Of a stretch of 37,911 nucleotides of DNA, positions 2,224-32,851 are shown piece after piece; position 1 is the stretch's first letter, and each line of letters begins with the position of its first letter. A model generated the notes under the pieces. It made no database searches, was not told the DNA's origin, and worked only from the letters and a program-made list of their open reading frames with translations. The stretch is taken from the NCBI GenBank assembly GCA_038874475.1, contig JAVZCJ010000011.1, positions 1 to 37,911 of the forward strand, given 5' to 3'. The stretch is from Nitrososphaerota archaeon (GTDB lineage: Archaea > Thermoproteota > Nitrososphaeria_A > Caldarchaeales > JAVZCJ01). The position numbers and the translations under genes were made by a program.

Positions 2224-4110
2224 ATGTTAAATTCATTTTGTAATGGAAAAATTCTTAGAGTAAACTTATCTCTAAATAAATTGATATTTGAAGAGCTAAA
2301 CGAAGGTTTTTATAGGACTTACTTAGGTGGTAGAGGATTTGGCGCATATTTTCTTTATAAAGAACTACTTCCTCATATTGATCCATTTGCTCCAGAAAAT
2401 AAGATTATATTTGCTACAAGTATTATAACTGGTGTACCAATACCAGGAGTAAATAGATTTAGTGTTATTTCAAAATCTCCACTTACAAATGGATTTGGAG
2501 AAGCTGAAGCTGGAGGATATTTTGCTAATGAGCTTAAATCATCAGGCTTCGATGCTATAATTATTGAAGGCACATCAGAAAAACCAGTATATTTATCAAT
2601 TATAGATGGCAAAGCTGAGATTAGAGATGCTGAGCATCTTTGGGGTAAAACGACAAAAGAAGTTACTGAAAAAGTTAAGAAAGAATTAAAAGATCCATTA
2701 ATAAGAGTTGCTTGTATCGGCCCATCCGGTGAGAAACTAGTAAGATTCGCTAATATAATATGTGATCAAAGGTATGCTGCTGGACGTAGTGGATTAGGTG
2801 CAGTAATGGGTTCAAAAAAGCTTAAAGCAATAGCTGTGAGGGGACATAAGAAATTTAAGTTTTATGACATGAAAAAGTTAATTGAAATTGCAAGATATTT
2901 TACAACAAATTGGAAAAATCATATAGGTTCAATGAGTCGACATATTTATGGAACATTAGATTTATTAACAGTTTTAAACTATGATGGCACTCTTCCTACA
3001 CTTAACTTTAAAGGCGGATCATTTGAAAAAGCAGATTTAATTAGTGGAGAAGAAATGAATAAAAAAATATTAATCAATAGAGAAGGTTGCTTTGCATGTC
3101 CTATAAGATGTAAAAGAGTAGTCAAAGGAAAAGAACCATATGTAACGGATCCAGATTATGGTGGTCCTGAATATGAAACAGTAGCAGCTTTTGGATCATT
3201 ATGCTATATTGATGATATTAATGCAATAGCTTTAGCAAATCAAATGTGTAATGCATATGGATTAGATACAATAAGCACGGGATGTGCAATTGCTTTTGCT
3301 ATGGAATGTTATGAAAATGGGATTCTTACAAAAGATGATGTAAATGGATTGGATTTAAAATTTGGAAATAAAGAAGCTATGCTTAAATTGATTGAGATGA
3401 TTGCTAAAAGAGAAAATATAGGCGACATTTTAGCTGAAGGAGTTATGAGAGCTTCCAAGAAAATAGGAAAAGGAAGTGAAAAATTCGCTTTACATGTTAA
3501 AGGAAAAGAAGTGCCAATGCATGAACCACGTGGCAAAGTAGGTCTTGCATTACAATATGCTCTTTCACTATCTGGAGCTGATCATATGCAATGTGCACAT
3601 GATCCGATTTTTGAAACGGAAAGAAAAGACTTAAAAATGATTGGAATAGAAAAAACGATTTTAAGAACAGATTTAGGACCGGATAAAGTTAAAGTATTCT
3701 ATTATTCAAACTTATGGTGGAGTTTATTAGATTGTTTAGGAATTTGTAAATTTACTTTCACTCCACACTCAGCCGGTGTTCTTACTCCAAATGATCTTGT
3801 TAATATTGTAAATGCAGTTACTAATTGGGATACAAGTCTTTGGGAGTTGATAAAATGTAGTGAAAGAGCTATAAATATAGCAAGATGTTTTAACATACGT
3901 GAGGGACTAACATCAAAAGATGATATAATTCCAGATAGATTCTTTGAAGAAATGGAGTTTGGTAGTAGGAGAGGGCAAAAGATATCTAGGAGCGATTTCT
4001 TTAATGCTAGAGATTTATACTATGATATGGCTGGATGGGATAAAGAAGGTAAACCTAGAAAAGCAAAATTATATGAGTTAGGATTAAGCTGGATAATTGA
4101 AAATATGTGA
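2224..4110 (+). CDS. aor: Aldehyde ferredoxin oxidoreductase (tungsten AOR family), copy 1
   Basis: A 628-aa cytoplasmic enzyme of the tungsten/molybdenum bis-pterin AOR family, which oxidises aldehydes to carboxylic acids and reduces ferredoxin. The N-terminal AOR domain starts at about residue 5 and contains the family segments GGRGFG (36-40) and AAGRSGLGAVMGSKKLKAI (186-203). The [4Fe-4S] ligands are C289, C292 and C296 (GCFACPIRC) plus C508 in DCLGIC, matching the CxxCxxxC + C arrangement of the Pyrococcus enzyme. Length is normal. The preferred start is the ATG at 2224, which follows a TATA box by 27 nt. A second, differently arranged AOR lies at 26772-28679 with its own ferredoxin; this copy has no adjacent ferredoxin gene. 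The natural aldehyde substrate cannot be told from sequence. Confidence 0.95.
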   Translation: MLNSFCNGKILRVNLSLNKLIFEELNEGFYRTYLGGRGFGAYFLYKELLPHIDPFAPENKIIFATSIITGVPIPGVNRFSVISKSPLTNGFGEAEAGGYFANELKSSGFDAIIIEGTSEKPVYLSIIDGKAEIRDAEHLWGKTTKEVTEKVKKELKDPLIRVACIGPSGEKLVRFANIICDQRYAAGRSGLGAVMGSKKLKAIAVRGHKKFKFYDMKKLIEIARYFTTNWKNHIGSMSRHIYGTLDLLTVLNYDGTLPTLNFKGGSFEKADLISGEEMNKKILINREGCFACPIRCKRVVKGKEPYVTDPDYGGPEYETVAAFGSLCYIDDINAIALANQMCNAYGLDTISTGCAIAFAMECYENGILTKDDVNGLDLKFGNKEAMLKLIEMIAKRENIGDILAEGVMRASKKIGKGSEKFALHVKGKEVPMHEPRGKVGLALQYALSLSGADHMQCAHDPIFETERKDLKMIGIEKTILRTDLGPDKVKVFYYSNLWWSLLDCLGICKFTFTPHSAGVLTPNDLVNIVNAVTNWDTSLWELIKCSERAINIARCFNIREGLTSKDDIIPDRFFEEMEFGSRRGQKISRSDFFNARDLYYDMAGWDKEGKPRKAKLYELGLSWIIENM

Positions 4111-7098: not shown

Positions 7099-7586
7099 TA
7101 TACAAAAATCATTTTTAGAGTATGACGATATAAATTAATTACATCTTCCTGCAGAATCTATGAAAAACTAGTTAGCCTAAAGTGGGTTTTTAATTAAGTT
7201 ATTCCTATTATATATCCGTATATTATATATCGAATATTTTAGCAGAAAATAGTTCGTAATCATAAAAAATATGAGTAAAAAATAAAGTCATTTATTGTAT
7301 TTGAAGAGAAAAACAAATAATATTTCTCAAATAATTAAATATTTTATAGCTCCGATTCCTTAAGTTGGAGAAAAGTATGTAGGAAAATTATTAAAAAAAT
7401 TTATAAGAAATATTTCCTATTTCATATGAAAAAATAATGGCCTTAAATATTAATTTTTAGCATACTTAATGCATTTCAGATTTTAATATTTTAAAGAAAA
7501 ATATCGAATTTTAAAATTAATTTGTAAAAATTTAAATATTATATTATAGTTAAAAATAATATCTTTTTAGAATAAGGTGCTAGATT
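7099..7586. other. 488-nt intergenic region
   Basis: No ORF of note, tRNA or repeat array was seen. It is very AT-rich. Two near-identical segments, ATTATATATCC and ATTATATATCG, lie at about 7209-7235. A weak hairpin can be drawn at 7350-7370 (CTCCGA pairing with TTGGAG, one G-T pair). The promoter of the coiled-coil gene lies at its right end (7531-7538). Nothing else supportable. Confidence 0.5.
7531..7538 (+). promoter_or_regulatory. TATA box of coiled-coil gene next to the ubiquitin-like island
   Basis: TTTAAATA preceded by GTAAAAA (BRE-like). The expected transcription start is near 7560, giving a leader of about 25 nt that contains the AAGGTG ribosome binding site at 7574-7579 for the TTG start at 7587. 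Confidence 0.5.
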
Positions 7587-8432
7587 TTGGGGATATTAGG
7601 ATCAACTAAAGAAAGGGATGAAGCAATATTAAAAGAATTACGTGCAAAATTATCTGAATTAAAAGAAACTATTTCATTAGAAATGAGTAAATTTAATGAA
7701 AGAATTGAAAATTTGGAAAATAAAGTTTTAGAATTATCAGAAAAAATGAGTAGTTATACAGGTTATAATCCAGAAGTATTTAGTAAAATTGAAAATATTA
7801 CTATTAAAGCTGAAAAATTATCTTCAATATTAACAAGAGTTGAAGATTATGAATTGAGAATAGTATCTATTCAAGAAGGTTTACAGCATTTACTTGATGT
7901 TCTTCAAAAAGAAAGAGAAATTATTAGAGGAGATTTAGAAAAAATCTCTAAAGAAAAAGCTGAATTAGTAAATATGAAAGAAGAAATACAAAGATGGATG
8001 AATGAATTAAAAGAGAAGGAAGGAAGCTTTAATTTATTACAATCTTCAGTAAAAGAATTAGAAGACAAGAAATTAAAATTGGAAGAAGAGATCAAAGAAC
8101 TTTCTTCAAATTATCTTCAAATGATAAAAAATACTTCATTAATGCTTGAAGAACAAATTAGAAAAATGGATAGGTCTCTTAAATTTAGAGAAATAAGACT
8201 TGAAAGACTTATTAAAAAAGAAAAAGAATTATCTGAAGCTATAGCTAATTTACAAGAAAAAGAAAAAGAATTTAAAGCTATTGAAGAAAAAAGTTCAAAT
8301 CTTGGATTAAAAGTCCAAGAATTGGAAAAAAGGAGAGAAGCTTTAGAAAAAGAGATAAAAAGATTGGAAGAAGAAAGGAATAGATTAGAAAAAATTGTAA
8401 AGGATATGAGAAGTGCTATATTAAAACCTTAA
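7587..8432 (+). CDS. Long coiled-coil protein, function unknown
   Basis: A 281-aa soluble protein that is almost continuous heptad coiled coil from about residue 10 to 275, rich in E, K, L and I, with no Cys and no membrane segment. Composition of this kind defeats family assignment; it resembles SMC/Rad50-like rods without any ATPase head. The TTG start is supported by AAGGTG seven nt upstream and a TATA box at 7531-7538. It converges on the last gene of the ubiquitin-like operon: the two stop codons are separated by one base. That tight packing hints at, but does not prove, a link with that system. It may be a structural or scaffold protein; no function can be assigned. Confidence 0.75.
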   Translation: MGILGSTKERDEAILKELRAKLSELKETISLEMSKFNERIENLENKVLELSEKMSSYTGYNPEVFSKIENITIKAEKLSSILTRVEDYELRIVSIQEGLQHLLDVLQKEREIIRGDLEKISKEKAELVNMKEEIQRWMNELKEKEGSFNLLQSSVKELEDKKLKLEEEIKELSSNYLQMIKNTSLMLEEQIRKMDRSLKFREIRLERLIKKEKELSEAIANLQEKEKEFKAIEEKSSNLGLKVQELEKRREALEKEIKRLEEERNRLEKIVKDMRSAILKP

Positions 8433-8433
8433 T

Positions 8434-8766
8434 TTATTCTTCTTTACTTTTAGCAATAATTTCTGTTAATTCTTGTAGAGTATCAGTTAATACATCTAAT
8501 TGAGCTGCTATTCCAATTAGCATTTCTTTTATTTCTTTTAAACTATTTTCTATAGAAGAAATTTTCTCAGGACTAATGCCTGAGGATTCAATTTGAGAAA
8601 TTTTTTCAATTATTTTTTCATTTTCACTAGATACTAGCATTAATGCCTCTGCTATTTTTTTACTGCTTTCATATGTAGCTACTTTACCTTTAGGAGTATC
8701 TATATAAGATAATTCTATTTCATATACTTCATTACCACTATTTTTACTTTCACTATTTTCTTCCAT
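8434..8766 (-). CDS. Unknown 110-aa protein, last gene of the ubiquitin-like operon
   Basis: I do not recognise this family. About 15 polar N-terminal residues (E, S, N) are probably disordered. A short predicted beta segment follows (YEIELSYID, about residues 16-24), then two long helices (about 33-65 and 70-108) with heptad-like I/L spacing. There is no Cys, so it cannot bind zinc the RING way. Its ATG overlaps the stop of the RING gene by one base (TAATG), and a strong ribosome site GAGGTGA lies upstream inside the RING gene, so the two are probably translationally coupled and made together. Guilt by association suggests a partner of the RING protein or a conjugation substrate, but that is inference. 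Confidence 0.8.
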   Translation of the reverse strand: MEENSESKNSGNEVYEIELSYIDTPKGKVATYESSKKIAEALMLVSSENEKIIEKISQIESSGISPEKISSIENSLKEIKEMLIGIAAQLDVLTDTLQELTEIIAKSKEE

Positions 8767-9008
8767 TAAACAATCACCTCAAGAATAGACCTTCTACATA
8801 TAGGGCATGTTCCTCTTAATCTACTCCATTCAATAAAACATGCACGATGCCCTATTGCTCCACAATTTGGACATTTATATATGCTATCGTTAGGATTAAT
8901 TTCTAACATACATATAACGCATTTTAATTCTTCTTTAATAAAAACCTTTTTTTTAACAGTCCAATCCCAAAAACCTATACTTTTCCCTTCCTTAAAAACA
9001 ATCTTCAT
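8766..9008 (-). CDS. Small RING-finger protein (candidate E3)
   Basis: An 80-aa protein with one cross-brace zinc finger: C30, C33, C46, C49, H54, C57, C68 and C71. Spacing is CxxC-x12-CxxC-x4-H-xx-C-x10-CxxC, an eight-ligand C4HC3 pattern close to RING and RING-CH domains; W61 sits where RING fingers contact E2. The N-terminal 25 residues are basic and carry two Trp. It matches the small RING finger protein (srfp) that follows E1 in the Caldiarchaeum ubiquitin operon. The expected role is to bring the charged E2 at 10247-10726 to its substrate. It lies 46 nt downstream of the E1 stop; the ribosome site is weak (AGAGAAA). Its own stop overlaps the start of the 110-aa gene. Confidence 0.9.
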   Translation of the reverse strand: MKIVFKEGKSIGFWDWTVKKKVFIKEELKCVICMLEINPNDSIYKCPNCGAIGHRACFIEWSRLRGTCPICRRSILEVIV

Positions 9009-9054
9009 TTTCTCTAAAATCTTTTATTAATACTTCTTAATTAGTATTACGTTT

Positions 9055-10224
9055 TTAATCTTCAATAATTATTTTAATCGTAAGAGGAGTAAATCTTCTC
9101 GTTGTATTTATATGCATATAATCCCCATTTTTAATATCCAATTCTGAAAGTTTTTGATGATCTCTTAAAAGTTTTGTTTTATATTGTATTTCTGGGTCTG
9201 GTAAACTAAAAGATTTTGCTATTCTTTCTTTTAAATCTAAAATCGTTTCATTAATAGAAGCTTTAAATTCTATATAGCCTGTTTTAAAAGCTTTTCCACA
9301 TACAAAACAATTCTCATTTTTTTCAAGATCAATTGTTGTAAATGAATTAGCTTTAGAATCATAAACTAATAATCCTTTAATTATTTCACCAATACTTTCT
9401 TTATGAATAATTTTAAGAACCTCTTGTGATTGTATACCAGCAATTGTTGCAGCAATTGTTTGAAGAGCAGGAAGTTTAGGTTTAAGCTTTTCTTGCAAGC
9501 TTAATATAAAATTTTTTAATTCTTCATCAATTTTTTTAAGATGTTCTATAGAAGCATATTTAATATCATATATAGTCTTAAATCCACTATTAAAAATTCT
9601 TGAAATAATTTCAAAATCAATTTCTAAACCTTGCTGAATTAAATCATTAAATAAATCTTTTGGTGTTCTTCTTTTAAGAGTACATTCAGCTAATTGAACT
9701 TCATTTGGAATTAAATTTTCTCCATGGCATTCAATACATGAAGTTACTCCAGGAATAACAACTTGAACATTTCCATAAAAACCTTCCATTGCTCCATCTA
9801 CTAATGGCTTATTTAATTCTACAGCTAAAGAATTTAACCATCTTCTAGTAGGCCAATTATCAACACAAGAACATATAACATCTGCTTCTTCAAAAATTTT
9901 CCCTTCAAGAAAATGCACATCTATATTATATGATTCAACTTTAACGTATGGATTCATTCTTTTAATTCTTTTTTTAGCTACTTCTGCTTTTGGTTTACCT
10001 ATATCTCCTTTATGAAAAAGCATTTGTCTACTTAAATTTGATAATTCAATAACATCCATATCAACAAGAATTAATTTACCTATGCCGACTAAAGCAAGAT
10101 TTTTAGCTACTTCACATCCTGTAGCTCCTACACCTACAATTAATATTTTAGCTGAACTTACTTTATTTTGATCCCAGCCTTCAATAATAATTTGCCTGTC
10201 ATACCTATCCATTAATGACGACAT
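9055..10224 (-). CDS. E1-like ubiquitin-activating enzyme
   Basis: A 389-aa ThiF/UBA-fold enzyme that adenylates the Ubl C-terminus and carries it as a thioester. The ATP-binding GVGATG is at 31-36, followed by D57, N63 and R66 in DVIELSNLSRQ. Two zinc-binding CxxC pairs are C163/C166 and C306/C309. The probable catalytic cysteine is C181 in ECTLKRRTP, very like the UBA1/UBA3 crossover-loop motif. A region of about 200-250 fits a small Cys domain. Residues from about 315 to 389 look like a ubiquitin-fold domain (KLSELDIKNGDYMHI), the part that binds E2 in eukaryotic E1s. It is compact compared with about 1000-aa UBA1 because there is one adenylation domain. A GAGG ribosome site ten nt upstream supports the ATG at 10224 over a second one at 10212. 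Confidence 0.95.
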   Translation of the reverse strand: MSSLMDRYDRQIIIEGWDQNKVSSAKILIVGVGATGCEVAKNLALVGIGKLILVDMDVIELSNLSRQMLFHKGDIGKPKAEVAKKRIKRMNPYVKVESYNIDVHFLEGKIFEEADVICSCVDNWPTRRWLNSLAVELNKPLVDGAMEGFYGNVQVVIPGVTSCIECHGENLIPNEVQLAECTLKRRTPKDLFNDLIQQGLEIDFEIISRIFNSGFKTIYDIKYASIEHLKKIDEELKNFILSLQEKLKPKLPALQTIAATIAGIQSQEVLKIIHKESIGEIIKGLLVYDSKANSFTTIDLEKNENCFVCGKAFKTGYIEFKASINETILDLKERIAKSFSLPDPEIQYKTKLLRDHQKLSELDIKNGDYMHINTTRRFTPLTIKIIIED

Positions 10225-10246
10225 TTATCATAATCCTCAAATAAAC

Positions 10247-10726
10247 TTAAATAAAAGCCTGTTCTTCTTTTGCAAAAGCAAGAATATATTGTTTAACATG
10301 AGCTTTAAAAATATCTGGATTATATTTTAATTCCATAGCAGCTATAGAATTTAATGGATCATCTGGATTAGGTTCATTAAGTAAATTTCTTAAAGTTTCT
10401 ATAATTGAAAAAAGATGAATTGAAGGAGACCAATCTGCTTTTAAAAGAGACTCGCATATTCTAGCAGGCTGATCATCAGAAAAATTAGGATGCCATATTC
10501 TCGTATGCCAAATAATTTCTGGAGGTGTAAAAGGAAAAGATCTGGGTACAAAAATTTCTACTCTAAAATATCCATTTTCATATATTCCTGAGCCTACTAT
10601 AACGCCCATATAATGAGTTAAATCATTATCAACTATATCGAATAATGGTTCATTTTCTCTCATTAATTTATATTCTAATGCAAGTCTTTTCTCCCACATT
10701 AATTCAGGGAGCTCTGCAGTTTGCAT
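10247..10726 (-). CDS. E2-like ubiquitin-conjugating enzyme
   Basis: A 159-aa UBC-fold protein of near-canonical length. HPN is at 79-81, with N81 as the oxyanion residue. The catalytic cysteine C91 (ICESLL) stands ten residues after N81, W99 in ADWSPSIHL follows, and EPNPDDPLN is at 118-126. The N-terminal helix (about 10-22) carries basic residues that in eukaryotes touch E1. Its first 23 bases overlap the end of the Ubl gene in another frame. An AGGGGG eight nt upstream acts as a ribosome site, supporting the ATG at 10726; a second ATG at residue 10 lies beyond the Ubl stop but lacks a ribosome site. It sits between Ubl and E1 in one operon. Confidence 0.96.
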   Translation of the reverse strand: MQTAELPELMWEKRLALEYKLMRENEPLFDIVDNDLTHYMGVIVGSGIYENGYFRVEIFVPRSFPFTPPEIIWHTRIWHPNFSDDQPARICESLLKADWSPSIHLFSIIETLRNLLNEPNPDDPLNSIAAMELKYNPDIFKAHVKQYILAFAKEEQAFI

Positions 10727-10967
10727 TAATTAAGCCCCCTACAGTTCTCGTTATCAAAACTAATTTATCGCCCTCTGAAACTCCTAAATTTGCAAGAGTA
10801 TCGGTATCTTTTACAGCTCTGCCTCTATAAGTTAATCTGGTTGTATCTGGTGGAAGACGTTTAATAGCGCAAACTTTAGCTTTTATAGCTCCAATAGTAG
10901 CTTCTGGAGAAACTTCTAATTCTAATGGACTACCTCCACCTACTGCTGGAATAACTTTTATCTTCAT
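10704..10967 (-). CDS. Ubiquitin-like modifier precursor
   Basis: An 87-aa beta-grasp protein and first gene of the operon. The strand/helix order of ubiquitin is visible: strand 1 KIKVIPA, strand 2 LELEVSP, the main helix TIGAIKAKVCAIKR, then TRLTYRGRAVKDTDTLANLG and KLVLITRTVGG. The mature C-terminus would be G77-G78, but nine residues (LINANCRAP) follow, so the protein is a pro-form needing a protease; the Rpn11-like gene transcribed divergently from it is the obvious candidate. The tail holds one of two Cys (C84; the other is C33). The tail is encoded by the stretch that overlaps the E2 start. Confidence 0.95.
   Translation of the reverse strand: MKIKVIPAVGGGSPLELEVSPEATIGAIKAKVCAIKRLPPDTTRLTYRGRAVKDTDTLANLGVSEGDKLVLITRTVGGLINANCRAP
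10735..10740 (-). promoter_or_regulatory. Ribosome binding site of E2 inside the Ubl di-glycine codons
   Basis: AGGGGG lies eight nt before the E2 ATG at 10726. It is made of the last base of V76 and most of the G77-G78 codons of the Ubl gene. Pairing with the CCUCC of 16S rRNA would be five base pairs with one G-U. It decides the E2 start and ties E2 translation to the conserved Ubl terminus. Confidence 0.55.
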
Positions 10968-11060
10968 TTCCTTTACCCCTTAATTATTAATTTAAATTAA
11001 TTATAAGATAAATATTAATTTATGCTTTTACTTTATTTAAATTAATAAAAGTGGTTAAGA
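10968..11060. promoter_or_regulatory. Divergent promoter region between Ubl operon and Rpn11-like gene
   Basis: A 93-nt AT-rich spacer serves both directions. On the minus strand TTTAAATTA (10991-10999) is about 27 nt from the Ubl ATG (10967), and AAGGGG/AAAGGAA precede that ATG. On the plus strand TTTATTTAA (about 11032-11040) is about 25 nt from the GTG start at 11061. Shared control of modifier and protease is likely; no operator palindrome is obvious beyond the AT-rich symmetry around 10985-11003. Confidence 0.5.
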
Positions 11061-11852
11061 GTGAAAGCAAGAATTTATCCTCTTGCATTAGGTAAAATAT
11101 TAAGACATTCTTTAACGAATTTAGAAAGAGAAGTAATAGGATTACTTATTGGAAAACTGCAAGGTCAAGTTTTAGAAATATGGGATGCAGTAACTGGAGA
11201 ACAATATGGAAAACAAGGATTTGTAGAATTAAATGAAGAAATTCAAGCAGAAATTGCTGAGAAATTACAAAAAGAAAGAAAAGGGTTAACTATAGTTGGC
11301 TGGTATCATTCTCATCCAGGCTTAGGTTTATTTCTTTCAGGAACAGATATTTCTACTCAAAAAATTTATCAAAAACTTTATCCTAAAGCTGTTGCTTTAG
11401 TTATTGATCCACTATTATATAGTAAAACAAAAGAAATTATGGATATAAAATTTAAAATATTTAGAATTGGAAAAAATGATAGAGTAATTACTGTACCTAC
11501 TACTATTGGAATAAGAAAGTCAAAACTTTTAGAAAGTACTATATATGCAATGAATACGCTTGATTTAAGACATATAATAGACATAGATTCTAATCAAAAT
11601 GCTTTAAAAATAGATAAAAATTATAAAAAAGATAATGATAATATAGATAAATATTTTATAAAAGAAATTAATAATATAGAATATTTTCCTAATTCTTTTA
11701 AAAATTATATTTTATCAAAAATTTTTTCAAAAATAAATTTTGAGAAGATAGATAGAAAATATATGTTTTTATTAATTACATCTTTAAGTATAGCTTTAAT
11801 AATAACATTTATAATAATTATTATTAAAAGTTTTATTATAAGTATTCCATAA
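11061..11852 (+). CDS. Rpn11-like JAMM metalloprotease with C-terminal transmembrane segment
   Basis: A 263-aa MPN+/JAMM isopeptidase. The zinc site is complete: E24 in EREVIGLLIG, then H83, H85, S93 and D96 in HSHP-x6-S-x2-D. In the Caldiarchaeum system the Rpn11 homologue trims the Ubl precursor and removes Ubl from substrates, and the divergent placement next to Ubl supports the same here. The MPN domain ends near residue 150. A lysine- and asparagine-rich linker (about 150-233) leads to one strong hydrophobic helix, about residues 235-260, rich in I, L and F and ending SIP. That would anchor the protease by its tail with the active site in the cytoplasm. The start codon is GTG, probably leaderless. 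It is followed after 15 nt by a coiled-coil gene on the same strand. Confidence 0.95.
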   Translation: MKARIYPLALGKILRHSLTNLEREVIGLLIGKLQGQVLEIWDAVTGEQYGKQGFVELNEEIQAEIAEKLQKERKGLTIVGWYHSHPGLGLFLSGTDISTQKIYQKLYPKAVALVIDPLLYSKTKEIMDIKFKIFRIGKNDRVITVPTTIGIRKSKLLESTIYAMNTLDLRHIIDIDSNQNALKIDKNYKKDNDNIDKYFIKEINNIEYFPNSFKNYILSKIFSKINFEKIDRKYMFLLITSLSIALIITFIIIIIKSFIISIP

Positions 11853-11867
11853 ATAAAGTGAGGAAAA

Positions 11868-12638
11868 ATGCCTAAAAAAATAGTTATTAAGCCTATTGAA
11901 GAAGAAGGAAAGGAAGAAGTTAAAGAGGTAAAAGAAGAGGAAAAAGAAGTAAAAGAGGAGGAGGCAATAATAGTTAAAGAAATTAAAGAAGAAATAAAAG
12001 AAGGGGCAGAGTTAGATGAAATAGATAAAGCATATAAAGAAATAGAAAATAAAATTAATGAAATTAAGCTTAGAGATCATGTATTTCAAAAACTTGTTAG
12101 AGATGAAGAAATACATCCGAAAGTTATTAAAAAGATTCTTTTAAAATGGAATGATTTAAAGAGTCAAGTTTTAGAAGATGCAAAAAGAATTAGGGAAAAA
12201 TTAATTGTTACAAAAAGTTTGATTGAAGATGAATTTTCAAAAACTGAAGAAGATCTTTATTTAGCTACTATTGAAGTAAATACTATGGAATTAAAATCTA
12301 AAGAGAAGGGAGAAGTTAAAAAAGTTGGAAAAATAGAAGAATTGGAAGCAAAAATACCACTTTTAAGACAAAAATTGTTTCAATTAAGAAGTAAAATAAA
12401 AGACATAGATGAAAAAATTAATTTTTTGAATGATTTACCAAAAAGAATTAATGAATTAACTATTTCAACTCAAATACCTTCAGAACTTTATGAAGAACTT
12501 AGAAAAAGATATGGAGCAATATATGGAGATAAATGGGAAGGTATTTTAAAAGGAAATATAGCAAACATAGCTGAAAGCGAAGGTATTCCAAGAGAATATG
12601 CTATAATATTAGTATGGAAAAGACTTAAAAGTAGTTAA
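11868..12638 (+). CDS. Charged coiled-coil protein co-transcribed with the Rpn11-like gene
   Basis: A 256-aa protein I do not recognise. Residues about 9-55 are a repetitive E/K tract (KEEVKEVKEEEKEVKEEE), surely extended or coiled. Residues 60-190 form further coiled coil, and about 200-256 looks like a small folded helical domain (ELYEELRKRYG, GDKWEGILKG, YAIILVWKRL). There is no membrane segment or Cys. GAGG six nt upstream of the ATG marks the start, 15 nt after the protease stop, so the two form an operon. It could be an adaptor that brings substrates or complexes to the membrane-bound protease. A PRC barrel as in CdvA is not visible, so I do not call it a Cdv protein. Confidence 0.8.
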   Translation: MPKKIVIKPIEEEGKEEVKEVKEEEKEVKEEEAIIVKEIKEEIKEGAELDEIDKAYKEIENKINEIKLRDHVFQKLVRDEEIHPKVIKKILLKWNDLKSQVLEDAKRIREKLIVTKSLIEDEFSKTEEDLYLATIEVNTMELKSKEKGEVKKVGKIEELEAKIPLLRQKLFQLRSKIKDIDEKINFLNDLPKRINELTISTQIPSELYEELRKRYGAIYGDKWEGILKGNIANIAESEGIPREYAIILVWKRLKSS

Positions 12639-26449: not shown

Positions 26450-26731
26450 TTATCCTCCACCAACTATTCCTGTAATAGATAGCATACTATCATTATTTAT
26501 TTCTTCTTCATTTAATTTTGATATTGTTTTTCCATTCAATATAATTAGTACATCAGGCTTTACTTCATTTTTTTCTGTTAATAAAATATTTTTAAAATTA
26601 AATCCATATTTATCTATTAAAATATTTATTAATTCTGATAGTTTCATTCCTTTTTCAATGGATATTTCTTCTATATGTTTTCCAGTTATTGAAGTAATTG
26701 GTGCTCCATAAATTATTTTTATTTTTATCAT
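26450..26731 (-). CDS. MoaD/ThiS-like sulfur carrier, ends in GGG
   Basis: A 93-aa beta-grasp protein with a C-terminus IVGGG. The GG end exposed without a tail marks it as a sulfur carrier or a SAMP-like modifier that needs no trimming. It is transcribed after the second AOR gene (40-nt gap), and AOR enzymes need a pterin cofactor whose dithiolene sulfur comes from MoaD; so MoaD function is the likely one. It lacks sequence resemblance to the Ubl at 10704-10967 beyond the fold. No adjacent MoaE or MoeB is seen; the E1 in the ubiquitin island is the only ThiF-type enzyme in the window. Confidence 0.85.
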   Translation of the reverse strand: MIKIKIIYGAPITSITGKHIEEISIEKGMKLSELINILIDKYGFNFKNILLTEKNEVKPDVLIILNGKTISKLNEEEINNDSMLSITGIVGGG

Positions 26732-26771: not shown

Positions 26772-28679
26772 TTAAATTTTCTTTAATTCTTCAGCTACAT
26801 CTTCTAATCCTAATTCTTTAAGTTTTTTAAAAGTAGGTATTCCTGTTTCAATATCCCAACCCATTGCTTCATAAAATTCATTAAGCATTAAATCTAAGTT
26901 TTTAACATATTCTCCTTTTACTGGACCAGTAGCTATTGGTTCATACATTCTTTTTGGAAGTTTATCATCTTTTCTATTAAACCCTTCTCTTACATTAAAG
27001 CATCTTTTTAGATTATATACTCTTTCACCAATTTTCATCAAATCATATTCATTCATTTCTATTCCAGTAAGCGAAGAATAAATATTTGCATAATCTTTAG
27101 CTGTTATCATATTACCTTCAGAACCCATTGAAGCGAATTGGCACATTCCCATTATTTCTGGAATTTGACCAAATATTGCAAAAAATCTATACGCTATACC
27201 TTTCCCTTCTTCAATAAATTTACCTTTTGGAGGCCATGGCAATCCAAATTGCTTTAAGCCATAATCATTTAAACTTTCTGGGCTTCTATCATATAAACCT
27301 GGGAAACCTGAATGAACATGACATCCCCCTCTATATTCTACAGCATATTTTATTGCCATTATTTTTGTTTCTCCTCTAGGATCATGAGCAGGCATTTCAA
27401 GCCCTTTTGTATGAAGAGCAAGTTCAGGTGCTCCATACCCTATTTTTTCAGCTGCTCTCATAACTCCTTCAGCTAATAAATCTCCTATTCTTTCTCTTTT
27501 AGCTATTAATTTTATTAATTCTATCATAGTTTCAGGATTGTTCCATTCAAGTTTTATCCCTTTAACTAAATCTTCTTTTATCCATCCTTTTTCATAACAT
27601 TCTATAGCAAATGCTATTACATTTCCAGCTGAAATAGTATCTAATCCATAATTATTACATAGATAATTTGCTTTTATTATTGCTTCCAGATTGCTTAAAT
27701 ATATCCATGGGCCAAGCATATCTGCTGTTTCAAATTCAGGTCCTTCATGAGGAGGAGTTGCCCATATTCCATGCTTAACTTCAGAGTACCTTCCACAACC
27801 TATTGGACATGCAAAGCATGCTCTCCTTTTTATAAGATATTTACTCAATAATCTTTCACTTGAAACATCTTCAGCTCTTTCAAAAAACCCAGTATAACCA
27901 TATTTTGTTGGTAATGCTCCCATAGCATTTAAAACTGTTATTGCATTAATTGTTCCAAACCTCCTTAAAGCAGTTTTCTTAAGAAGAGCCTTTTCAGCTT
28001 CTGTAACAAATTCATAAAATTTTTCTGGATTTGCAATTTCAATATCTTTTTCTCCATTTATTGCTATAGCTTTTAAATTTTTAGAACCCATTATTGCTCC
28101 TCCTCCACATCTTCCAGCAGCCCTATCTCTATCATTCATAACCGCTGCAAATCTAACCAATTTTTCTCCTGCAGGGCCTATGCATGCGATTGATGCTTCT
28201 GGTTCTTTAATTTCTTCTAAAATTATTTCAGTTGTTTCATGAACTGTTTTTCCATATAAATGTTGAGCATCTTTAATTTCTACTTCTCCATTATTAATCC
28301 ATATATAAACAGGCTTATCAGATTTCCCTTCAATTATTATATGATCAAAACCTGCATATTTCATTTTAGGACCGAATATTCCACCTGAACGAGATTCTCC
28401 AAATGCATTTGTTAAAGGAGATTTAAAGCATATTTCATAACTCCCTGAGCAGGGACAAAGTGTTCCAGTAAGTGGTCCAGTTGAAAAAATTATTTTATTT
28501 TCAGGGCTTAAAGGATCTATTTTAGGCTTTAATTCATACCATAAAATTGCAGCTGCATAACCTGTGCATCCAATATATTTTTTAATAAAATCTTTTCTTA
28601 AAGATTCTTTCAAAATCTTCTTTTTACTTAAATCTATTCTAAGAATTTGGCCAGCATAACCAAAAATTTTTTCACTCAT
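26772..28679 (-). CDS. aor: Aldehyde ferredoxin oxidoreductase (AOR family), copy 2
   Basis: A 635-aa tungsten/molybdenum pterin enzyme that makes acid from aldehyde and reduces ferredoxin. It shares the AOR layout with copy 1: GYAGQILRIDLS at the start, the pterin segment RAAGRCGGGAIMGSKNLKAI, a cluster site ACFACPIGCGR (CxxCxxxC), and a last Cys in IMGMCQF. It is clearly diverged from copy 1 and so may use a different substrate. The frame opens at an ATG (28709) inside the ferredoxin gene, but GGTGA in front of the ATG at 28679 and the 10-nt gap to the ferredoxin stop support 28679. It forms an operon ferredoxin-AOR-MoaD. Confidence 0.95.
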   Translation of the reverse strand: MSEKIFGYAGQILRIDLSKKKILKESLRKDFIKKYIGCTGYAAAILWYELKPKIDPLSPENKIIFSTGPLTGTLCPCSGSYEICFKSPLTNAFGESRSGGIFGPKMKYAGFDHIIIEGKSDKPVYIWINNGEVEIKDAQHLYGKTVHETTEIILEEIKEPEASIACIGPAGEKLVRFAAVMNDRDRAAGRCGGGAIMGSKNLKAIAINGEKDIEIANPEKFYEFVTEAEKALLKKTALRRFGTINAITVLNAMGALPTKYGYTGFFERAEDVSSERLLSKYLIKRRACFACPIGCGRYSEVKHGIWATPPHEGPEFETADMLGPWIYLSNLEAIIKANYLCNNYGLDTISAGNVIAFAIECYEKGWIKEDLVKGIKLEWNNPETMIELIKLIAKRERIGDLLAEGVMRAAEKIGYGAPELALHTKGLEMPAHDPRGETKIMAIKYAVEYRGGCHVHSGFPGLYDRSPESLNDYGLKQFGLPWPPKGKFIEEGKGIAYRFFAIFGQIPEIMGMCQFASMGSEGNMITAKDYANIYSSLTGIEMNEYDLMKIGERVYNLKRCFNVREGFNRKDDKLPKRMYEPIATGPVKGEYVKNLDLMLNEFYEAMGWDIETGIPTFKKLKELGLEDVAEELKKI

Positions 28680-28689
28680 AAGATCACCA

Positions 28690-29172
28690 TTATTTAGGAT
28701 ATGGTTCAAGTGGTACAGATTCTTTCTTTAATAATTTAGATATAATTAAATTCTTATAATAAACTGCTTTTGTAGAATCAACATATTCTAAAACTTTTTC
28801 TGGACAATTTTTTACACATTCAGGTTCTCCATCGCATAAATCGCATATTAATGCTTTCTTTGTTACTGGATCGATTGTCGCAGCTCCATATGGACAAACA
28901 AAAACGCATTGAGCGCATCCAATACATTTATCAATTAATACATTTATTGCACCATTTTTCTTATTCCTTATTATCGCTCCTACTGGACAAGAATTAATAC
29001 ATAAGCCACATTGTATACATAATACTGGAGAATCTATATATGGTTCGCTTCTAACAACATGTATCCTAGACCTTGATGGATTATTAATTTTAAAATGGTG
29101 GAATGAACAATATAATTCACATAAATGGCAACCTGTGCATTTTTTAGGATGTATTATTATATTTTTCCACAT
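28690..29172 (-). CDS. Four-cluster ferredoxin partner of AOR
   Basis: A 160-aa iron-sulfur protein with sixteen Cys in four [4Fe-4S] sets: C12/15/18/22, C52/55/58/62, C83/86/89/93 and C110/113/119/123. Such proteins are electron-transfer subunits next to AOR genes (AorB-like) or in HycB/DmsB-type enzymes. The frame reaches an ATG at 29208, but a TATA box (TATATAAA) covers that ATG, so the ATG at 29172 is chosen. It is co-transcribed with AOR copy 2 and may carry its electrons to the soluble ferredoxin pool or to the hydrogenase complex. Confidence 0.92.
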   Translation of the reverse strand: MWKNIIIHPKKCTGCHLCELYCSFHHFKINNPSRSRIHVVRSEPYIDSPVLCIQCGLCINSCPVGAIIRNKKNGAINVLIDKCIGCAQCVFVCPYGAATIDPVTKKALICDLCDGEPECVKNCPEKVLEYVDSTKAVYYKNLIISKLLKKESVPLEPYPK

Positions 29173-32392: not shown

Positions 32393-32443
32393 TTTTGTTT
32401 TAAAATTTTATTAATATCTTAATTGTTTTTATTATATCAAGCC

Positions 32444-32851
32444 ATGGTATTACTAATTAGTGAAGAGCATTATAAAAGAATTTTAAAACATTGTGAAGAA
32501 GTTTATCCAATAGAAGCGTGCGGAATGCTTGGAGGAATAAAAATTGGAAATTCGAAAATAGTAAAAAAGGTATACGAAGCTACAAATACTTTTAATTCTT
32601 TTAGAAGATATCAAATCCATCCAGTTGAAGAATATGAAATACTTCGAGATATAGAAAAATCCGAATTAGAACTTGTTGGAATATACCATAGCCATCCATT
32701 TTGGTCAGCTTCTCTTTCATCAATAGATGAAGAAACTTTTTCATGGCCTGATTGTTCATATGTAGTTATTTCAATTAAGGATAAAGAAGTAAAATCATTT
32801 ATATTAGATAAAAATGGAAAATTTTTAGAAGAAAAAATAGAATTTTATTAA
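32444..32851 (+). CDS. Second JAMM/MPN+ metalloprotease (short form)
   Basis: A 135-aa single-domain JAMM protease. The zinc site is complete: E24 in IEACGMLGG, then H82, H84, S92 and D95 (HSHP-x6-S-x2-D). Short forms like this in archaea and bacteria cleave ubiquitin-like or sulfur-carrier proteins, for example archaeal JAMM1 on SAMP conjugates and Mec+ on CysO. It has no membrane segment, unlike the 11061-11852 protein. Candidate partners in the window are the MoaD-like protein (26450-26731) and the Ubl. The frame extends seven codons upstream to a TTG, but the ATG at 32444 starts a normal MPN N-terminus. Confidence 0.92.
   Translation: MVLLISEEHYKRILKHCEEVYPIEACGMLGGIKIGNSKIVKKVYEATNTFNSFRRYQIHPVEEYEILRDIEKSELELVGIYHSHPFWSASLSSIDEETFSWPDCSYVVISIKDKEVKSFILDKNGKFLEEKIEFY

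Follow-up and report, generated by a model that had tools for sequence, protein, structure and literature searches.

A TPxG-hairpin protein beside the RING gene of the Caldarchaeales ubiquitin operon as a candidate ligase partner

The window analyzed here, a 37,911-nucleotide (nt) stretch from a Nitrososphaerota archaeon (contig JAVZCJ010000011.1, G000:C11:1-37911) whose genome comprises 1.92 Mb in 30 contigs, carries a ubiquitin operon of the order Caldarchaeales (Aigarchaeota). The genes for the ubiquitin-like modifier (Ubl) precursor, E2, E1 and a RING protein share the minus strand, and the gene for an Rpn11-like JAMM deubiquitinase is divergent from them. The Ubl precursor gene (10704-10967; 87 amino acids (aa); Pfam ubiquitin, 2.2e-12) overlaps by 23 nt the gene of the E2 conjugating enzyme (10247-10726; 159 aa; Pfam UQ_con, 3e-29), beyond which lie the E1 activating enzyme (9055-10224; 389 aa; Pfam ThiF, 2e-65, plus a C-terminal ubiquitin domain, 5e-7) and a small, E3-like RING finger protein (8766-9008; 80 aa; Pfam zf-RING_2, 5e-10). 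The JAMM gene (11061-11852, plus strand; 263 aa; Pfam JAB, 1.5e-19) is set apart from the Ubl gene by a 93-bp AT-rich divergent intergenic region (10968-11060) that presumably serves as a shared promoter. Overlapping the RING gene by one base is the gene of a 110-aa protein (8434-8766, minus strand) that combines a TPxG hairpin with a coiled coil; this TPxG protein, a conserved neighbor of the RING, is the main subject of this report. The window was compared with about 100 of its relatives, and the Pfam E-values of the core genes, together with their conservation in about 40 other genomes, exclude a chance origin for them.

The catalytic core appears intact. In E1, the catalytic C181 lies within ECTLKR, a GxGxxG motif is found at residue 31 and a CxxC/CxxC zinc site is present; its best relatives in the PDB are UBA1 and UBA3, and a C-terminal ubiquitin-like domain has already been noted for this E1 class (PMC5654768). 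In E2, the HPN motif (residues 79-81) and the catalytic C91 are both invariant in an alignment of E2 homologs, while the RING protein has eight zinc ligands (C30, C33, C46, C49, H54, C57, C68 and C71) and the JAMM protein its catalytic H83, H85 and D96. An earlier note on this DNA had recognized a eukaryote-like archaeal ubiquitin system with a known core; the Pfam domains, residues and gene block agree with this, and all of the gene positions and catalytic residues that it named are present. The Ubl C terminus reads RTVGG followed by LINANCRAP, a nine-residue tail past the di-glycine. Relatives differ in the length of this tail, which ranges from zero to about 20 residues and in many cases runs into the E2 reading frame; as some of them have no tail at all, precursor processing is not required in all. 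The Ubl gene (10704-10967) has a G+C content of 0.386, against 0.277 for the window, and its product is 99% identical in the sister species, both of which are consistent with strong constraint on the protein.

Ubiquitin systems have been published for Caldiarchaeum subterraneum (C. subterraneum) and six other Aigarchaeota (PMC5654768, PMC6043591, PMC6053391). The C. subterraneum operon (Ub, E2, E1, srfp and Rpn11; PMC5654768, PMC6043591) shares its genes, their order and strands, and the catalytic residues with that of the window, as the earlier note had stated for the gene order. It also has the nine-residue Ubl tail, the E1 with a C-terminal UBL domain and all three of the genes that flank the core in the window, those at 8434, 7587 and 11868; it differs in that the window JAMM has a predicted C-terminal transmembrane (TM) helix and the second RING gene has moved away. 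For these comparisons, relative genome L044 was taken to be the C. subterraneum type genome; its TPxG family member is encoded at L044:11672-11983. Identity to C. subterraneum is 44-76% for the core proteins, 48-76% for E1, E2 and Ubl (76% for Ubl itself), and 30-38% for the flanking genes. Homologs of the three flanking genes occupy equivalent positions through most of the order, so the earlier description of them as additions in this window does not hold: their conservation extends across the order, with C. subterraneum among the species that have them.

Among the relatives compared were Caldarchaeum, Pelearchaeum, Terraquivivens, Wolframiiraptor, Geocrenenecus and Calditenuaceae. The window genome and one sister species (G001; proteins 89-99% identical) form a family of their own within the sampled set. 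The E2 family was detected in all 44 sampled Caldarchaeales genomes, one of which, a 57%-complete bin, shows just a divergent copy; none of the 17 sampled genomes of the phylum outside the order has it. A tree of E1, E2 and Ubl groups the Caldarchaeales together (support 90), with the three proteins clustering in the Caldarchaeales/Asgard ubiquitin set, and places the window family as sister to Terraquivivens (bootstrap 100). The source is thus a member from inside the order, with a Ubl 76% identical to that of C. subterraneum, rather than the divergent relative previously proposed. Judged from these sequences, the ubiquitin system is vertically inherited across the order; horizontal gain by the window lineage is unsupported by the tree.

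The E1 has a MoeB/ThiF-type fold, and the window also encodes a MoaD/SAMP-like protein (26450-26731) and a second, desampylase-like JAMM (32423-32851), which raises the question of whether the operon represents a sulfur-carrier/SAMP (Urm1-like) system instead. The SAMP/Urm1-JAMM system likewise uses a beta-grasp modifier, a ThiF-type E1 and a JAMM protease, but has no E2 or RING; here a true E2 and a RING are present, E1, E2 and Ubl group with the ubiquitin set, and in C. subterraneum the SAMP/JAMM and Ub/Rpn11 pairs do not cross-react (PMC6043591). This makes a SAMP identity for the operon scarcely credible, and the two systems coexist in the window genome, as in C. subterraneum. A bacterial anti-phage E1-E2/JAB system (CBASS or Bil-like) was also considered and rejected: E1 matches the PADLOC E1-E2 models over the shared ThiF domain only, E2 matches none, and no CD-NTase or effector was recognized in the list of open reading frames (ORFs) of the window.

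The TPxG family is defined by an N-terminal consensus, IEI-x-x-I-x-TPKG-x-VPT, followed by a coiled coil. In the window member TPKG occupies residues 24-27, and T24, P25 and G27 are invariant across 29 Caldarchaeales and Asgard sequences. In an AF2 model (pLDDT 78.5) the TPKG sits where a short beta-hairpin (residues 21-30) turns, and two helices follow the hairpin. The family is present in 40 of 44 Caldarchaeales genomes at E <= 3.2e-15 and in 56 of 195 Asgard genomes at E <= 1e-6; matches of its profile in other Thermoproteota (E >= 7e-9) start at model position 20 or later, lack the hairpin and were set aside as coiled-coil cross-hits. The window member is matched by no Pfam or NCBIfam model, and comparison with Pfam profiles returned scattered coiled-coil hits only. 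Sequence searches of the PDB with this protein and with the 256-aa protein encoded after JAMM returned nothing useful, and the family profile found in the PDB only coiled-coil matches, mostly missing the hairpin. No mention of the family was found in a literature search that left most subscription papers outside its scope, and an earlier description is possible.

Because coiled coils match one another by composition, a profile was built from the hairpin only (44 residues, 36 Caldarchaeales members) and searched against 2991 ORFs from Asgard ubiquitin loci. The top 19 Asgard matches all lie within 201 bp of a RING gene, as do just 170 of the 2991 ORFs overall (P = 8e-25, to be read as an order of magnitude, as related genomes are not independent). 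This rules out mere coiled-coil similarity as the source of the Asgard matches, and hhalign relates the Caldarchaeales and Asgard alignments at 96% probability. A RING gene is located within about 1.5 kb of the TPxG gene in 24 of 31 Asgard loci; of the other seven, four have one within about 5-8 kb, two are on short contigs without a RING, and in one the TPxG gene lies between the E1 and E2 genes, with no RING detected at the threshold used. Asgard ubiquitin clusters (Hermod-, Hod/Heimdall-, Baldr-, Jord- and Sigynarchaea) thus resemble the window in having Ubl, E1, E2 and RING genes with a TPxG coiled-coil protein beside the RING, but differ in their gene orders, in adjoining UEV/Vps23-like genes, in having a full JAMM in few loci and, in some, in TPxG-AAA+ fusions. 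In Jord- and Sigynarchaeal loci, a TPxG-like N terminus (with the glycine changed) is fused to an AAA+ domain near RING genes; the best solved relatives of this domain are p97/Cdc48. A further TPxG-AAA+ fusion (L242) adjoins E1 and JAMM genes. These fusions suggest that the hairpin may link ligases to an unfoldase.

Several additional arrangements were observed around these clusters. In Hermodarchaeal loci (L122:1312-2118 and similar), a UEV/Vps23-like protein gene adjoins the TPxG gene, which may point to a connection with ESCRT in Asgards. A 288-aa E2-like/UEV, RWD and RING single chain adjoins the ubiquitin operon in a Sigynarchaeal locus (L125:3186-4052; similar in L121 and L151). Within the Caldarchaeales, Calditenuaceae genus g5 has, besides a normal operon, a second divergent cluster (L037:7095-9869, L038:9741-12520, L039:9232-10531 and L040:7678-10544) composed of a stand-alone E1-like protein, a 273-aa ubiquitin-like and E2-like fusion, and a JAMM.

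The neighborhood could be ordinary, with a functional core and with flanking coiled-coil genes that are neighbors by history and play no part in ubiquitylation. The flanking genes do evolve faster than E1, E2 and Ubl, as judged by their identities to C. subterraneum (30-38% against 48-76%), the gene after JAMM is about 8 kb away in some f3 genera, and the core works in vitro without the flanking proteins (PMC5654768). Against this, the TPxG gene keeps its RING neighbor across two phyla and several gene orders, and its species distribution follows that of the ubiquitin system; a linkage kept for so long makes chance implausible, and we consider neighborhood by history very unlikely, if harder to exclude for the other two flanking genes than for TPxG. 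The earlier expectation of new candidate parts in the flanks is borne out, and for the 110-aa gene more strongly than claimed; in the protein comparison with Aigarchaeota and Asgard genomes that the note had suggested, the flanking genes prove to be order-wide and the TPxG gene occurs in Asgards as well.

Adjacency gives no direction to the relation between TPxG and RING proteins, and the TPxG protein might instead be a substrate, an inhibitor or an assembly scaffold for other clients; in vitro experiments with the C. subterraneum enzymes had modified Rad50 on its coiled coils (PMC5654768). The most conserved part of the TPxG protein is, however, the hairpin and not a lysine region, and in some Asgards a relative is fused to an AAA+ motor, as would be more expected of an adaptor than of a substrate, so that the reading as substrate, inhibitor or scaffold seems unlikely. 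The conservation and linkage patterns make a dedicated partnership with the RING ligase the most likely role of the TPxG protein, and the best reading of the family is as an overlooked conserved part of a known ubiquitin system.

Nearly all genomes of the order have two RING genes. The second product (RING2, ~240 aa) has hydrophobic segments, mostly four TM helices, ahead of a C-terminal RING, according to a hydropathy scan of 36 members. In PMC6043591 a "second E3 protein" is named that presumably corresponds to RING2; we found no mention of its membrane nature. The usual order of the E3 module is RING, TPxG, cc7587 and RING2, where cc7587 (7587-8432, plus strand) encodes a 281-aa coiled-coil protein and is a conserved convergent neighbor of the TPxG gene; its homologs keep this position across the order, the detached f2 module included. 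In Calditenuaceae the module is detached from the JAMM-Ubl-E2-E1 genes, yet it is whole in most (L166, L167 and L170-L175), so that it is the ligases, and not the conjugation enzymes, with which the TPxG and cc7587 genes are associated. Blastn against the sister species shows the window genome losing synteny at 7539 (breakpoint 7539-7586), with the RING2 side resuming at ~9440 of contig C17, where RING2 is intact (L165:9524-10249); the separation reflects either a rearrangement or a misassembly. The system had been called complete, which is accurate for Ubl, E2, E1, RING and JAMM, all present in the window, but not for the membrane RING2, which here is on another contig; both this second RING gene of the cluster and the predicted JAMM TM helix had been missed. 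A TnpB-like ORF was also observed on C17 (L165:13360-14535).

The window JAMM ends in ...KYMFLLITSLSIALIITFIIIIIKSFIISIP, with a predicted TM helix at about residues 234-255. Hydropathy of this tail reaches 3.02 at residue 237 (over 19 residues), as it does at about that level in the sister species, whereas it is <=1.3 in 34 other members of the order (one cut by a contig end). Lysines and an arginine precede this single hydrophobic C-terminal helix, giving a tail-anchor-like pattern in the hydropathy scan, and the distribution of charge suits a cytosolic JAMM catalytic domain. CsRpn11 has no such tail and retains catalysis without its last helices (PMC6043591), so anchoring would set the location of the enzyme and not its activity. 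In the window family, JAMM is probably anchored to the membrane by its C-terminal helix, which would place part of the ubiquitin cycle there.

The 256-aa protein encoded after JAMM (cc11868; 11868-12638, plus strand) has a homolog in all 31 Caldarchaeales genomes sampled, and genomes sampled from the rest of the phylum gave no match for it. Its AF2 model is all-helical (pLDDT 83), and a fold search returned no solved relative at E <= 0.001. An ESCRT-III identity was rejected, as there was no ESCRT fold match and the Snf7-like genes of this genome are located on contig C5. A 63-aa fragment with a stop codon at G000:C3:75945-76118 resembles the middle of cc11868 and is possibly a decayed copy. 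Elsewhere in the window, ORFs at 2224-4110 and 26772-28709 appear by eye to encode aldehyde ferredoxin oxidoreductase-like proteins, and a third, similar ORF is found on G000:C17 (L165:2212-4050).

Sequential E1-E2-E3 activity and precursor cleavage have been demonstrated for the C. subterraneum proteins (PMC5654768, PMC6043591), and the core steps are assigned here from those experiments on orthologs and from the residues conserved in the window. JAMM would trim the nine-residue tail from the Ubl precursor; E1 would adenylate the exposed di-glycine end, load Ubl onto C181 and hand it over to C91 of E2; the small RING would stimulate transfer from E2 to lysine, and JAMM would also remove the modifier. 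From the genes present, their conservation and linkage, and the predicted membrane segments we further infer a RING partnership, docking and membrane action: the TPxG beta-hairpin may dock on the ligase or on a substrate-handling machine while its coiled coil oligomerizes the protein, RING2 and cc7587 belong to the same module, and part of the cycle probably takes place at the membrane, through RING2 generally and through the anchored JAMM in the window family. The genome encodes proteasome subunits.

Taken together, we regard it as likely that the operon is an inherited Caldarchaeales ubiquitylation system whose conserved unit is larger than that published, with the TPxG protein acting as a ligase partner and with action partly at the membrane. 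Several points weigh against this. Gene neighborhood alone is no proof of binding, and the biochemistry comes from C. subterraneum orthologs, not from the window species. RING, E1 and E2 of C. subterraneum are sufficient in vitro without the TPxG protein (PMC5654768), which is thus not needed for catalysis. The AF2 model of TPxG has a pTM of 0.35, making only its local shape usable, and a fold search with it returned no match at E <= 0.001. The TM helices of JAMM and RING2 come from a hydropathy scan and not from a trained predictor, and the putative JAMM tail anchor is seen in two species only. A bolder proposal, possible if doubtful, is that TPxG proteins are adaptors between archaeal RING ligases and a Cdc48-like AAA+ unfoldase, forming with the polytopic RING and the anchored deubiquitinase a primordial membrane-protein quality control system, a forerunner in kind of Hrd1/Doa10-Cdc48. 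The comparison with eukaryotic Hrd1/Doa10 and Cdc48 is one of working likeness only (a polytopic RING ligase, a deubiquitinase at the membrane and a possible link to a Cdc48-like motor), and no homology is claimed for the membrane parts.

The core of this system is already known; what is new, beyond the literature surveyed, is the TPxG family, the predicted membrane nature of RING2, the predicted JAMM tail helix and the cohesion of the module. The eukaryotic ubiquitin system has its best candidate ancestor in the archaeal one, which has been described as five parts with no known adaptors. A TPxG family that stands beside the RING from Caldarchaeales to Asgards offers a specific candidate for the ligase partner that this description lacks, and a membrane RING ligase together with a putatively tail-anchored deubiquitinase points to a possible site of action. 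The parts are small, derive from thermophiles and are testable with the reconstituted C. subterraneum cascade.

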